Of a stretch of 64,000 bases of DNA, positions 40,880 to 45,375 are shown piece after piece (position 1 is the stretch's first letter; each line of letters starts with the position of its first letter). A model generated the notes under the pieces. The model had not been told where the DNA came from, did not search any database, and worked only from the letters and a program-made list of their open reading frames with translations. The translations under genes and the position numbers were made by a program. Location of the stretch: the NCBI GenBank assembly GCA_947462875.1, contig CANHQJ010000006.1:62001-126000 (forward strand). The letters run 5' to 3'. This DNA comes from Verrucomicrobiia bacterium. GTDB lineage: Bacteria > Verrucomicrobiota > Verrucomicrobiia > Verrucomicrobiales > Akkermansiaceae.

Positions 40880-41482
40880 ATGGCTCTGGAAAAAGTAACA
40901 CAAGTGAGCGGTCGCGGCGTATTCGTCCCCGGCGCTGATATCGATACGGACCGCATCATCCCGGCGCGTTTCATGAAATGCGTGACCTTCGATGGTCTGG
41001 GCGAGTTCGCGTTCTACGACGTGCGTTTTGACTCGCAAGGAAATCGCACGGATCACCCGCTGAACGACGCCCGTTTCGCCGGTGCGAACATTCTCATCGC
41101 GGGCATGAACTTCGGCTGCGGATCCTCCCGCGAGCACGCGCCGCAATCTCTGCGCAAGTACGGCTTTGATGCCGTGATCGCCGAATCGTTTGCGGAAATT
41201 TTCAATGGCAACTGCACCACGCTCGCCATGCCCTGCGTGGTCGCCAGTGCGGCGGACATCGCCGCCCTGCGCGCCGCCGTGGAGGCGGACCCGCAGCTGC
41301 AGATCACCATCGATCTCGGCAGCCTGCTTGTCACCACTTCCGCCGGACACAGCATCGCCATCACCATGCCGGAATCGGCACGTGACGCGCTGATGGCCGG
41401 CCGCTGGGATCCGATCCAGGAATTGCTGGACAACGATAGCAAGATCGAGGAACGCGCGAAAGCGCTCGGTTACGTTGCCTGA
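40880..41482 (+). CDS. leuD: 3-isopropylmalate dehydratase, small subunit
   Basis: LeuD is the swivelling small subunit of isopropylmalate isomerase. The 200-residue product shows RGVFVPGADIDTDRIIPARFM and NFGCGSSREHAPQSL (the substrate-binding loop), then AESFAEIFNGNCTTLAM. It is of normal length. It forms an operon with leuC and continues to rpe with only 13 bases between the leuD stop and rpe start. Confidence 0.97.
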   Translation: MALEKVTQVSGRGVFVPGADIDTDRIIPARFMKCVTFDGLGEFAFYDVRFDSQGNRTDHPLNDARFAGANILIAGMNFGCGSSREHAPQSLRKYGFDAVIAESFAEIFNGNCTTLAMPCVVASAADIAALRAAVEADPQLQITIDLGSLLVTTSAGHSIAITMPESARDALMAGRWDPIQELLDNDSKIEERAKALGYVA

Positions 41483-41495
41483 ATACCCGCACGCC

Positions 41496-42161
41496 ATGAT
41501 CGCCCGCACCTGTCAGGATCGTGTGATTGCGCCGTCGCTTTTGGCGGCGGACTTCGGGCGCATCCAGGAAGAGACCAGCCGCGCGATTCACGCGGGGGCG
41601 GACTGGATGCATCTCGATGTGATGGACGGGCACTTCGTCGACAACATTTCCTTCGGTCCCGCCGTGGTGCAGGCGGTGCACGAGAGCAACGACATTTTTC
41701 TGGATGTGCACCTGATGATCTCGCGTCCGGATCATTACCTGCCGCGTTTCATTGCGGCGGGGGCGGATCTGATCACCGTGCATGTCGAGGCCGATCACGA
41801 TGTGGCGGAAACTTTGCGTCGCATCCGTGAAGCGGGGTTGCAGGCGGGTTTGGCGCTCAATCCCGCGACGCCGATGTCCGCCGTGGAGCCCTACCTCGAT
41901 CAAATCGACCTGTTGCTCTGCATGACGGTCGTGCCGGGCTTCGGCGGGCAGGCGTTCATGGAAGAAGTGCTGCCGAAAATCGCCCAAGCGGCCGCCTGGC
42001 GTGAGGAAAAAGGCCTGCGCTATCACATCGAAGTCGATGGCGGCATCGGTCTTGCCACCGCTCCCAAAGCCGTGGCCGCAGGGGCCAACGTGCTCGTCGC
42101 CGGATCCTCCACCTTCTCCGCCCCCGACATGGCCGCGGCGATCCAGGCGCTGCGCAGCTAG
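41496..42161 (+). CDS. rpe: Ribulose-phosphate 3-epimerase
   Basis: Rpe interconverts D-ribulose 5-phosphate and D-xylulose 5-phosphate in the pentose phosphate pathway. The 221-residue TIM barrel shows IAPSLLAADFG, HLDVMDGHFVDNISFGP, DVHLMISRPD, MTVVPGFGGQAF and EVDGGIG, which carry the metal and catalytic Asp/His residues. ATG 41496 is preferred to TTG 41475, which overlaps leuD. The island of foreign-looking cassettes starts shortly after its stop. Confidence 0.95.
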   Translation: MIARTCQDRVIAPSLLAADFGRIQEETSRAIHAGADWMHLDVMDGHFVDNISFGPAVVQAVHESNDIFLDVHLMISRPDHYLPRFIAAGADLITVHVEADHDVAETLRRIREAGLQAGLALNPATPMSAVEPYLDQIDLLLCMTVVPGFGGQAFMEEVLPKIAQAAAWREEKGLRYHIEVDGGIGLATAPKAVAAGANVLVAGSSTFSAPDMAAAIQALRS

Positions 42162-42271: not shown

Positions 42272-42274
42272 TCC

Positions 42275-42565
42275 TCAAGGCTCGTCTGAACGGGAGCCCG
42301 GGTTGCTTGATGGCAGCATCTTATCCGCCATCTGCTGCGCGTGTGCCAAAGGATCAGTCAACAACCGTTCACGCTCGGTCCACCATGTCTCCTTCCATTG
42401 GGGTGCGCCTGACTGCCGATCGTATACAGCCGATCTTTGTGGTCCTGATGGACTGTTGGTTACCACTGCCAGTAGCTGTCCATCCACCGAGACTTTACGC
42501 CACATGTGCGGTGGATCGTGAGCTCAAGGGAAGGAAGAACCCGCGATATCTTCGACATCGGTCAT
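42275..42565 (-). pseudogene. Cassette gene with in-frame TGA
   Basis: From ATG 42565, six bases past the repeat core GTTCTGC, a frame reads 13 codons (ending GSSFP), hits TGA at 42524-42526, and then stays open in the same frame for 82 more codons. Those start AHDPPHMWRKVSVDGQLLAVV and end at 42275. The two halves read as one protein of about 96 residues interrupted by a stop. The downstream part alone could start at ATG 42505 (76 residues). No family is recognised. A nonsense mutation is the simplest reading. Confidence 0.45.
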
Positions 42566-42571
42566 TTTTTT

Positions 42572-42696
42572 GCAGAACGTTTAGGCCTGGAAATCCGCTA
42601 CCGGGAGCGCTCCTCCGCTTTAGGTTGAGGTTTGTCGCCATCCTCCGAGTTCGACTCGTGGCGGGTAGCGGGTTGCGGAGTGCCGGCTTGTTCGCT
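42572..42696. repeat. attC-like inverted-repeat element 1
   Basis: The left core GCAGAAC is at 42572-42578 and the right core GTTCGCT at 42690-42696 (one change plus a shift from GTTCTGC). Inside, CCGCTACC (42595-42602) pairs with GGTAGCGG (42664-42671). The element covers the last 33 codons of the gene at 42598. It is the most diverged of the three copies. Confidence 0.55.
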
Positions 42697-43356
42697 GTTT
42701 CTTTTGTCGATCCACGCTAGGTATATTGGAAGCTCGGGCAATTCGATAAAGCCCTCGTCCTCCGGCTTCTTGGGGAGTGCGACCACTTCGAGATGTCGGA
42801 TGCGATCCGCGCACGTCTTCTCACCGAGTCCTGTATCCAGAATGATCCAAACGGAGTTCTTAATCTTGTCCTCAGAGTCCTCGTCGAAATCATAAAGGCC
42901 AATTCGCAATCCTAAGATCGAAGGATCGGTCTTGGCGGTCAGCGGGAGAAACCAGAGTTTCCGTGGATCAATCTTTAGCTCGCCATACACGTGAACGAAC
43001 TCGAATCCTAAGGCCTGCTTGAACGCTATGATCTTCCACTTTGGGAGCTTCGGCGCGGCCGCAACGAGTGTCTCGACCTTCGGGAACTTCGCACGAACAC
43101 CCTCAGCAGAAATAATCAATTCATTCGAACCATCATCAAGCGGTTGGGAAACCTCAAAGAAGAGTTCGGAATCGTATTCATGGAGGTGTTCGAGGAGTAG
43201 GTCTAGCAACTCTTCGCCATCTTCTGCCTTGTCGATACTTCTATAACGCTCGTTCTCACTTCTGAACCATGTCCAAAACTTGGCTTCGGGGGATGTATTG
43301 GCAGATGCAGACATGGCAAATACTGCGTATACGCAGGTGATTGTCGCAAGGGTCAT
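42598..43356 (-). CDS. Cassette gene: secreted hypothetical protein
   Basis: The 252-residue product starts with a signal peptide (TITCVYAVFAMSASANT) and then FWTWFRSENERYRSID, a long acidic helix (EDGEELLDLLLEHLHEY) and a beta-rich part with SNELIISAEGVRAKFP. The next motifs are LPKWKIIAFKQ and VWIILDTGLGEKTCADRI. The pattern 'FW.WF...e..l', later 'li.SaeG....fP.v..L..aAP.l..W....F', is one I recognise from uncharacterised bacterial proteins of about 150-200 residues, without a known function. ATG 43356 lies six bases after the repeat core. An in-frame start further upstream would run through the repeat and is rejected. GC content is clearly below the neighbours. Confidence 0.6.
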   Translation of the reverse strand: MTLATITCVYAVFAMSASANTSPEAKFWTWFRSENERYRSIDKAEDGEELLDLLLEHLHEYDSELFFEVSQPLDDGSNELIISAEGVRAKFPKVETLVAAAPKLPKWKIIAFKQALGFEFVHVYGELKIDPRKLWFLPLTAKTDPSILGLRIGLYDFDEDSEDKIKNSVWIILDTGLGEKTCADRIRHLEVVALPKKPEDEGFIELPELPIYLAWIDKRNSEQAGTPQPATRHESNSEDGDKPQPKAEERSR

Positions 43357-43362
43357 TTTATT

Positions 43363-43491
43363 AGCTAACGGTGAGCACTTGCACCCGCTACCAGCGACAC
43401 GGGAAGACGAACTCGGGGTGATCTTTGAAACTACGATAAACGCCGCAAACACCGCCGCTGGTAGCGGGTTACACGATGCGGATTGTTCTGC
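43363..43491. repeat. attC-like inverted-repeat element 2
   Basis: The right core GTTCTGC is at 43485-43491, directly after the stop codon of the gene at 43492 (minus strand). The left core is AGCTAAC at 43363-43369. A perfect 14-bp stem, ACCCGCTACCAGCG (43383-43396) with CGCTGGTAGCGGGT (43456-43469), leaves a loop of 59 bases. Arm sequence is shared with element 1. Confidence 0.65.
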
Positions 43492-43977
43492 TCATGGTCG
43501 ATTCCATCTTTCGATTCTGTATCTTAAATTAGTCTTCTTAGGTGATTGGTAAAGATTACTTGGTGGCTTTTGTGTCTCAAGAGCCTGGAAAGCACTGCCT
43601 AAGACGTGTGATGGATTAACTGTAGCATCGGGATCGCGCCATTCGCTCCAGACACTGCTAATGGATAAGCCGTGCTTCTTCAAATCATAAATTTCAGATC
43701 TTTTCAGGCTGTCACTAGTAGGCTCAAGATCAATTACAATTAGGCACTTTCGACGATCATGTAGTAGGGCTGAATATTCGTAATATTTGTAATCTGAATC
43801 AGATCTTGAAGTCTCTGGATTGATCTTACTGGAACTCATAGATTCATGCTGTACCAGATGAAATCTGTTAATCTTGGGGGATGCTTTGTCTACACGAACT
43901 TCAACAAATACGTGTTTAGTATCCATTGAGCCACAGGCAGCAAGTAATAGTGTAGCGCATAATGCGAATATTTTCAT
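43492..43977 (-). CDS. Cassette gene: hypothetical lipoprotein
   Basis: The 161-residue product has a lipoprotein signal with lipobox LAACGS (Cys15), then a Ser/Lys/Asp-rich mainly beta domain with KCLIVIDLEPTSDSLKRSE and SSVWSEWRDPDATVNPSH. No family is recognised. ATG 43977 lies four bases after the repeat core GTTCTGC and the TGA stop directly touches the core of the next repeat, so the gene fills its cassette exactly. AT content is high compared with the core chromosome (many AAA, AAT and ATT codons), a sign of transfer. Confidence 0.65.
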   Translation of the reverse strand: MKIFALCATLLLAACGSMDTKHVFVEVRVDKASPKINRFHLVQHESMSSSKINPETSRSDSDYKYYEYSALLHDRRKCLIVIDLEPTSDSLKRSEIYDLKKHGLSISSVWSEWRDPDATVNPSHVLGSAFQALETQKPPSNLYQSPKKTNLRYRIERWNRP

Positions 43978-43981
43978 TTTT

Positions 43982-44069
43982 GCAGAACGATAAAGTGGAG
44001 GCACGCGACCAATGAAGCCCGAATCCAACAATAAACGTCCCTCGCGTTGCCTCGCACGCCTTGTTCTGC
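43982..44069. repeat. attC-like inverted-repeat element 3 (best copy)
   Basis: GCAGAAC (43982-43988) and GTTCTGC (44063-44069) are perfect inverted 7-mers bounding 88 bases. Inside, GAGGCACGCGA (43998-44008) pairs with TCGCGTTGCCTC (44042-44053) apart from one extra T, an extrahelical base as in integron attC sites. The overall plan (two cores, a stem with a bulged base, a variable terminal loop) is that of an attC/59-base element. Confidence 0.7.
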
Positions 44070-44338
44070 TTTGGGCGCGAATTAGGGGTGAACGACGCAT
44101 CCGGCACAACCAATGCCCTGCCTGCAACTCCGACGCGCCTGCCGTGGATTCCTGTCCGGTGTGCGAGAGCTACGACGCCCGCAACCAGTGGGACGTGTAT
44201 CCGCCGGAAGGATGGCGAAAGATGGACTGGCGGAAACGCTACGGATCATACGTGGAATATCTCTACGTCGAGAACCCGCCGAAACTTGAATGGGATGGCG
44301 AGCGATGGATTGAGAAGCCGAACAGTATTTATTCGTAG
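44012..44338 (+). CDS. Cassette gene: zinc-ribbon hypothetical protein
   Basis: The 108-residue product has a basic N-terminus, a zinc ribbon CPACNSDAPAVDSCPVC and a tail rich in aromatic residues (WRKMDWRKRYGSYVEYLYVE). The first 19 residues are read from inside attC-like element 3, so the true start may be a later non-ATG codon. It points away from the other cassette genes. Function is unknown. It ends 86 bases before the inverted repeat at 44424. Confidence 0.45.
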   Translation: MKPESNNKRPSRCLARLVLLWARIRGERRIRHNQCPACNSDAPAVDSCPVCESYDARNQWDVYPPEGWRKMDWRKRYGSYVEYLYVENPPKLEWDGERWIEKPNSIYS

Positions 44339-44423
44339 CCCATCCGACCGTTATATCAGGCAGGCATTTCTTTCGATAGAAAACCATGTTTTCCTTCCTG
44401 CGGCAAGGAATATCCCAGGAAAT

Positions 44424-44490
44424 CGTTCGTATATCAGGTCATTGCCTGGGGTGGTTCGGAGCAGGGGATGTTTTGGCTGATATACGAACG
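44424..44490. repeat. 14-bp perfect inverted repeat
   Basis: CGTTCGTATATCAG at 44424-44437 and CTGATATACGAACG at 44477-44490 are perfect inverted copies 39 bases apart. A partial third copy (GTTATATCAGG) lies at about 44350-44360. The arms are AT-rich inside GC-rich DNA. It could be the end of a small mobile element, an operator pair for the short-chain dehydrogenase downstream, or a further recombination site at the right boundary of the cassette array. Confidence 0.6.
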
Positions 44491-44598
44491 CCGGGCCCTG
44501 GTTCAGGGGGGGTACGGGCGTGGTCGCAGGATTCCGCCGCCACGGGCGCCTCTGCGACTGGTCTTGACGCCGCTGCCGCGGTGATTTATGAGTGGGTC

Positions 44599-45375
44599 AT
44601 GCATGAGACACATTCATTGGTAGGGTTGCGGTTGGACGGGAAAGTGGCTTGGGTGACGGGGAGCAGCCGCGGGCTGGGCAAGGCGATCGCGGTATTGCTG
44701 GCGAAGCTCGGGGCCAAGGTGGTGGTGAATTGTTTTTCCAACATTGCTCTCGGCCAGGCGGTGGTCGATGAAATCACGGCCGATGGTGGCCAGGCCTTGC
44801 TGGTGGCGGGGGATGTGATGGATGCCGCGGAAATCCAGCGCATGGCGGAGGAGATCGAGGCGCACTGGGGTGGGGTGGATATTTTGGTGACGAATGCCAC
44901 GCCGCCGCAGCCGATGAAGTGGATCGCGGACTACGAGTGGTCGGAGTATCAATCGATGTATGATGCCTTTGTCAAAAGCCCGTTCCTGCTGGCGCAGCGG
45001 CTCTTGCCCGGCATGAAGGCTAGCCGTTGGGGACGCATCGTGCAAATCACCAGTGAGGTGTTTCACGAGGGAATGCCGGAATTTTCCGCGTATGTGGCGG
45101 CGAAGGGCGCGCAGGTGGGGTGGTCGCGCTCGATGGCGAACGAGTTGGCGGCGGAGGGCATCACGGTGAATTGTGTGGCGCCCGGCTGGATTCCGGTGGA
45201 GCGGCATGAGGCGGTGCCGCAGGAGGCGAAAGATGCGTATGTCAAAACCATTCCGGTGGGGCACTGGGGGACGCCGCTGGATGTGGCCTGGGCGGTGGCA
45301 TGGTTCGCCAGCCCGCAGGCGGGATTTCTGACGGGACAGACCTTGGTCGTCAACGGTGGCCGCACCATGCACTGA
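44599..45375 (+). CDS. SDR family oxidoreductase
   Basis: The 258-residue protein is a classical short-chain dehydrogenase. It has VAWVTGSSRGLGKAI (NAD(P)-binding TGxxxGxG), VTNATPPQP in place of the common NNAG, the catalytic Tyr/Lys pair in FSAYVAAKGAQVGW, and the closing GFLTGQTLVVNGGRT. It resembles 3-oxoacyl-ACP reductase (FabG)-type enzymes but has no fab neighbours. The motif NATPP instead of NNAG makes a non-FabG substrate likely. ATG 44599 is chosen by family length. Longer in-frame starts run into the inverted-repeat region. Confidence 0.82.
   Translation: MHETHSLVGLRLDGKVAWVTGSSRGLGKAIAVLLAKLGAKVVVNCFSNIALGQAVVDEITADGGQALLVAGDVMDAAEIQRMAEEIEAHWGGVDILVTNATPPQPMKWIADYEWSEYQSMYDAFVKSPFLLAQRLLPGMKASRWGRIVQITSEVFHEGMPEFSAYVAAKGAQVGWSRSMANELAAEGITVNCVAPGWIPVERHEAVPQEAKDAYVKTIPVGHWGTPLDVAWAVAWFASPQAGFLTGQTLVVNGGRTMH

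Follow-up and report, generated by a model that had tools for sequence, protein, structure and literature searches.

A probable integron cassette array behind one of eight attI copies in an Akkermansiaceae genome

The window analyzed here is a stretch of 64,000 nucleotides (G000:C6:62001-126000) from a 3.95-Mb draft genome in 39 contigs. Between the gene for a ribulose-phosphate 3-epimerase (rpe) and that for a short-chain dehydrogenase it contains a small array of cassettes separated by hairpin elements, all three of which run R″ to R′ on the minus strand, the strand on which the array is read (Table 1). The sequence-only reading had given this array the extent 42272-44340; the feature in fact runs on to 44490, where an attI copy that had been overlooked forms the right edge. 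The rpe and dehydrogenase genes are adjacent in this genome only, and in relatives they lie 27–45 kb apart or on separate contigs. Because the locus lies at this break in synteny, no relative showed the window site in its empty state.

Table 1. Predicted features of the array and its flanks (window positions), with the intron found in other arrays of the genome
Feature	Position	Strand	Remarks
Left flank: ribulose-phosphate 3-epimerase	41475..42161	+	downstream of leuC and leuD; kept across the genus
Terminal cassette 4, probably decayed	42272..42577	-	begins GTTCTGC AAAAAAATG past attC site 3; ORF fragment 42275-42505, 76 aa
attC site 3, type B, about 129 bp	42572..42696	-	AGCGAAC/GTTCTGC; held-out model R1, 91.9 bits
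Cassette 3, 791 bp	42578..43368	-	own ends GTTAGCT / AGCGAAC, 6/7 match
attC site 2, type A, about 130 bp	43363..43491	-	GCAGAAC/GTTAGCT; held-out model R1, 53.8 bits
Cassette 2, 619 bp	43369..43987	-	own ends GTTCTGC / GCAGAAC, 7/7 match
attC site 1, short, 88 bp	43982..44069	-	GCAGAAC/GTTCTGC; attC anatomy
Cassette 1, 335 bp	43988..44322	-	ends GTTCGGC / R″ GCAGAAC, 6/7 match
attI-like site, solo, no adjoining intI	44323..44490	-	crossover between 44323 (G) and 44322 (T); one of 8 genomic copies
Right flank: short-chain dehydrogenase	44611..45375	+	homology with the related genome G004 begins at 44555, about 65 bp past attI
Group IIC-attC-type intron	L041:1326-3174 (G000:C28)		also at the contig ends of C5, C8, C13, C11 and C19

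Judged by sequence and structure, the three hairpins are integron attC sites of ordinary attC architecture, with R″, L″, L′ and R′ boxes and one arm that carries additional bases. Seven genomic attCs outside the window, with no window element included, served to build a covariance model of 22 pairs (R1). This model matches 42570-42698, at E 2e-23 when the window is searched and 1.3e-21 over the whole genome, as well as 43361-43493, at E 4.7e-11 over the whole genome; a search of the full 64 kb gave no further matches. It misses the element at 43982-44069 because that site, at 88 bp and not about 130 bp, is too short for the model; the element nevertheless shows R boxes that are complementary at 7/7 positions, two unpaired spacers and a bulged L stem, GAGGC(A)ACGCGA/TCGCGTGCCTC, whose L″ arm carries one additional base. 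Genome-wide, R1 yields 24 matches at E ≤ 1. Across 43 matches from this genome and its genus, 159 helix cells are doubly compensated versus 66 ± 8 in shuffles, and sliding the partner columns by 1–3 lowers the covariation score from 0.37 to 0.06–0.08. A search of the region against Rfam returned nothing beyond a lone weak match to Giardia U1 (E 0.13), which we attribute to chance. Additional attC matches are present at loci where neither attI nor intI was detected (C11:71068, C6:156251, C14:77229, C22:15095, C5:125790 and C9:127586), and part of the genome's attCs are therefore single or belong to true CALINs.

These results confirm the elements that had been seen in the window and support part of the interpretation given to them. 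The inverted repeats lie exactly where they had been placed, and their assignment to an integron-type cassette array is upheld by the held-out covariance matches to two of the three elements, by covariation, by matching cassette ends and by an intI gene elsewhere in the genome. The 24 genomic matches and the covariance support speak clearly against the outcome that the same reading had set as its own refutation, namely no other copies and no covariance match. Its outer cores, GCAGAAC/GTTCTGC or close variants, describe the 43982-44069 element well; the other two sites pair GCAGAAC with GTTAGCT and AGCGAAC with GTTCTGC, and the halves of a junction need not match.

A mismatch between R″ and R′ inside one junction is tolerated because the two halves belong to neighboring cassettes, and for the same reason a script that demanded perfect R and L boxes picked up only the short attC. 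The cassette is the unit whose ends agree. Own-end complementarity averages 6.04 of 7 bases over 25 cassettes, compared with 4.77 when ends are permuted (0 of 20,000 permutations as high), and in the same test the two halves at one junction pair at chance (4.48 versus 4.72 permuted, p 0.92). The 14 cassettes located directly behind attI copies reach 6.29 versus 4.91 permuted (0 of 100,000), and window cassettes 1, 2 and 3 score 6, 7 and 6. By sequence, each cassette is a discrete unit with matching ends, as expected of a circle that was opened at G/TT on insertion (here and below, the slash in such motifs marks the crossover or insertion point); the R′ at its start and the R″ at its end would then derive from one site and so match. 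Evidence for such entry comes, at the level of sequence, from the own-end complementarity together with the conservation break described below.

The cassette genes start a few bases past the R′ core, as the initial reading had noted. That they are richer in AT holds overall (50% versus 58% GC) but not for cassette 1, which is itself 58% GC. The best open reading frame of cassette 1 (44012-44338, plus strand, 108 aa) is antisense to the array, starting inside the cassette's attC and stopping inside attI; it has a CxxC...CxxC pattern, and its zinc-ribbon matches are weak and below the cut-off. The product of cassette 2 (43492-43977, 161 aa) has an N-terminus, MKIFALCATLLLAACGS, that resembles a lipoprotein signal, and that of cassette 3 (42598-43356, 252 aa) begins with a signal-peptide-like segment; neither matched a Pfam family. 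The cassette 3 frame passes R″ into its own attC, and attC site 3 encodes the final 32 residues of the protein. At the far end of the array, the R1 search of the 64-kb window found no attC closing cassette 4. Its first frame (42505-42577, minus strand) opens with ATG and is closed after 13 codons, and the next open stretch, of 76 codons, is in a different frame; the terminal cassette therefore looks frameshifted.

The window attI is a 168-bp sequence shared with the site adjoining intI and ends exactly at the crossover. Eight copies occur in the genome (the window, C1 with intI, C5, C7, C8, C13, C17 and C28), five of them within 4 kb of a contig end in this 39-contig draft. All are alike up to ...TACGAATAAATACTG/TT and unrelated beyond it, with conservation ending exactly at the G/TT crossover and a different cassette behind each copy. 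Mean pairwise identity is 0.95 over the last ten bases before the crossover and 1.0 for the TT, then drops to 0.44 over the next ten bases and to 0.26–0.34 thereafter. The arrangement TGATAT-N15-TACGAAT is conserved across the attI family, and the window core, TGATAT-N15-TACGAATAAATACTG at 44323-44358, has 0 mismatches to the attI search pattern described below. A TGATATA(A)CG motif found in the core is repeated twice upstream, once inverted; in the window the upstream copies are at 44424-44437 and 44477-44490 and form an inverted pair. By analogy with DR1 and DR2 of attI1, we infer that these repeats are putative accessory binding sites. A sigma-70 scan found no promoter in attI. The R′ core is GTTC... 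at 18 of the 28 attI junctions in the family and conforms strictly to GTTRRRY at only 2, so the lineage prefers GTTC cores. The deviation from GTTRRRY that the sequence-only reading had pointed out is thereby borne out to some extent; the phylum-specific class it had proposed is not, the architecture being that of ordinary attC. In one related genome (G005; L132, L133 and L135), the upstream attI motif CGTCGTTATATCAG is tandemly repeated, and an adjoining stretch of 1.8 kb has been duplicated both between and within loci.

An intact intI adjoins only the C1 copy of attI. This gene is the one match in the genome above the TIGR02249 cut-off (340 bits versus 265; G000:C1:351769-352716), and its open reading frame (L016:6764-8074, minus strand) lies about 375 bases from the contig end. 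Divergent to it is attI at L016:8155-8330, which reads ...ATACTG/TTGTGC and leads into a cassette start, as expected of an integron. The 436-residue product contains the Pfam domains Phage_integrase and Phage_int_SAM_4. Its best solved relative is the Vibrio cholerae integrase VchIntIA (PDB 2A3V), which aligns with residues 119-433 (E 7e-70), a range that covers the IntI-specific stretch together with the R...HxxR...Y residues. Residues 1-118 fall outside this match and constitute an N-terminal extension of about 115 residues relative to VchIntIA. Open frames of 428–539 aa in many relatives suggest that a long N-terminus is common in the family. Among named sequences, those closest to the integrase come from metagenome-assembled genomes of Akkermansiaceae and other Verrucomicrobiota. 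The window itself has no integrase, as had been stated, and tblastn found no trace of intI below E 0.5 in the 18 kb around the array; with the sole above-cut-off intI on C1, the window locus is not a complete integron. Remnants of the intI start persist beside attI at C13 (82 residues), C5 (56) and C28 (26), and no intI sequence was found beside the copies in the window, C7, C8 and C17.

Taken together, the stretch is very probably an integron array in which three or more minus-strand cassettes follow the solo attI, and on which the C1 integrase presumably acts in trans. The whole is best described as a chromosomal integron dispersed among many solo attI sites. In the mechanism we propose, the C1 integrase would excise cassettes as single-stranded attC hairpins and, acting in trans, insert them at any member of the attI family. 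As for the origin of the attI copies, the intI–attI platform, or only its edge, may have been duplicated and its intI then truncated or lost. Each copy would carry a cassette promoter and thereby constitute a separate expression site.

The attI family extends well beyond this genome. A pattern with 21 fixed bases, allowing ≤2 mismatches, was searched in 260 Akkermansiaceae genomes; it is present in 46 of them, in 5 of 16 genera and in 10 of 10 genomes of the source genus, and the reversed pattern used as a control had 0 matches in the 260. G164 (97% complete, 70 contigs) and G198 each have 14 copies; the 24 matches in G009, a 9.4-Mb, 82%-complete bin, are given no weight. In G134, which is a single contig of 5,677,198 bases, there are four attI copies, two with intI within 2 kb and two without, and one of the latter heads three attC matches. 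Copies of attI occur in G001, G005, G006 and G008, where no intI was found at E 1e-25.

One solo attI is orthologous in two species (G000:C7 and G001:C14). The left flanks are collinear, with about 80% identity up to attI itself; attI aligns across both arms and the core, and divergence begins directly past CTGTT. The cassettes that follow are all different (about 5 kb in G000 and 5.8 kb in G001), and beyond them the collinear flank resumes from the same gene in both. No trace of intI was found at either locus by tblastn. Since flanks and attI are kept and there is no local intI, the cassettes were replaced without a local integrase. Most simply, this attI would predate the split of the two species, and cassettes are most likely exchanged in trans at attI sites that have no adjoining integrase, although homologous replacement from relatives, instead of IntI acting in situ, is also possible in principle at this locus. 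We consider it moderately likely that the integron of Akkermansiaceae is a distributed one, in which a single IntI, perhaps present only intermittently, acts on many solo chromosomal attI sites, each an independent site of insertion and expression kept by selection, and that many integrase-less arrays of such genomes are live outposts rather than relics.

The chief rival, in our opinion unlikely, is that the window array is itself a relic; it shows no sign of recent exchange and occupies a synteny-break locus. In its general form, this explanation holds that several complete integrons once existed and that the window and the other solo-attI arrays are their dead remains, engaged in no further exchange, a scenario that we likewise regard as improbable. 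The intI fragments of varied length beside three attI copies are what it would predict, as are the three intI matches at E ≤ 1e-25 in each of G134 and G275, the several attI copies without intI at the cut-off in G001 and G005, and the decayed appearance of cassette 4. The window attI core is nonetheless intact, and the orthologous C7/C14 locus has kept its flanks and attI while its cassettes have changed with no trace of intI, which argues against the loss of all exchange.

Still more doubtful is the possibility that the attI copies of about 170 bp are a discrete mobile unit, a solo attI with G/TT at both ends that is moved by IntI, rather than products of platform duplication. The solo copies in the window, C8, C17, C7 and G001/G004 do have almost identical starting points, at GGCG/TTCGTATATCAG, a sequence that itself resembles a GTT core. 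The copies in G164, however, share an upstream stretch of differing lengths with no single edge, three copies in the source genome retain intI sequence, and the functional limit of attI would yield the same sharp edge.

Insertion of cassettes at genomic sites other than attI (attG) has been reported elsewhere (PMC12901181, PMC12444791), and this genome has other attC loci where no attI was detected (C11, C19, C14, C22 and C9). For the window, a CALIN produced by attG insertion, with no attI of its own, is very improbable and is refuted by the 168-bp attI copy at which the array begins and which ends exactly at the crossover. That the hairpins are chance inverted repeats, or REP-like or terminator elements between ordinary small genes, is hardly credible: their single-strand folding energies are only modestly below those of shuffles (z −0.6 to −2.6), but the held-out covariance matches, covariation, own-end matching, genomic intI and the attC-specific intron insertions described below refute it.

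Integrons have been described with one attI, which adjoins intI. The predicted distributed integron resembles the Vibrio cholerae superintegron in its IntI family, its species-specific attCs of about 130 bp, its cassettes of unknown function and the proximity of cassette starts to the core. It differs in that V. cholerae has one long array beside intI, compared with many small arrays at eight attI copies here, and in the N-terminal extension of the integrase. By the IntegronFinder rule (at least two attC sites and no intI near by; PMC9024848) the window array, with three attC sites, would qualify as a CALIN, but it has its own attI, which the CALIN definition does not foresee. Beyond class 1, attI sites are so little known that IntegronFinder leaves them out of its search (PMC9024848); arrays headed by attI would therefore be filed as CALINs unnoticed. 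CALINs are said to be mobilizable in trans, and Xanthomonas is known to have arrays distant from intI (PMC12444791). The attG insertion sites and delta-attI cassettes that have been described (PMC12901181) are similar in that insertion occurs away from the intI-linked attI and pieces of attI are found in unusual places; delta-attI sites, however, replace attC at the cassette end, whereas the sites dispersed through this genome are complete attIs, accessory repeats included, and stand at the head of arrays. A limited search of the open literature, with subscription journals and preprints outside its scope, found no description of multi-copy solo attI. The present case adds many attI copies per genome and orthologous solo sites with cassette turnover. 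Comparative genomics now gives this attI family a recognizable core, making attI recognizable outside class 1, and solo attI sites provide a testable explanation of how some of the integrase-less arrays now classed as CALINs originated. A single genome could in this way take up, and probably express, cassettes in many locations.

A near-identical group II intron that encodes an RT-maturase (RVT_1, GIIM; group-II-D1D4-3) interrupts several of the genome's arrays. The intron sits in R″ of attC, on the strand opposite to the cassettes, between TTGT and GTGTG (TTGT/GTGYG). At C28, C11 and C19 we find hallmarks of group IIC-attC introns: an RT-maturase ORF, a 5′ GTGYG and TTGT/T insertion in R″. 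Known group IIC-attC introns are reported to enter the R″ box at TTGT/T on the strand opposing the cassettes (PMC7923331); the insertion rule is the same here, and the one difference of note is the interruption of several arrays in a single genome by a near-identical intron. Five contigs break inside arrays because these near-identical introns sit there. An identical 148-bp repeat at contig ends, considered as a shared cassette or attC, was rejected as such and is the end of the group II intron. Three loci of G001 (L126, L127 and L130) have an identical 148-bp end in common, probably the same kind of intron end.

The reading of cassette 3 into its attC is one instance of what appears to be a class of translated attC sites, in which unrelated cassette proteins read through R″, GAA replacing a TAA stop. 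Codon-position and NG86 counts gave no convincing sign of purifying selection on the attC-encoded tail. The tail is hydrophilic, about 32 residues long and contains ...EQAGTGQPATRPES...; it reads (A/S/T)EQAGTGQPATRPESKSEGSDKPQPEAEGRSR up to a stop at a common position, and it is found in at least three genera. Most of the tail-bearing proteins start with a signal or lipoprotein signal. Besides the window (42598-43356, minus strand), the tail occurs at L042:9913, L042:10486, L135:5449, L126:5556 and L149:687, and further loci that carry it are L153, L207, L208, L204, L202, L201, L213 and L189.
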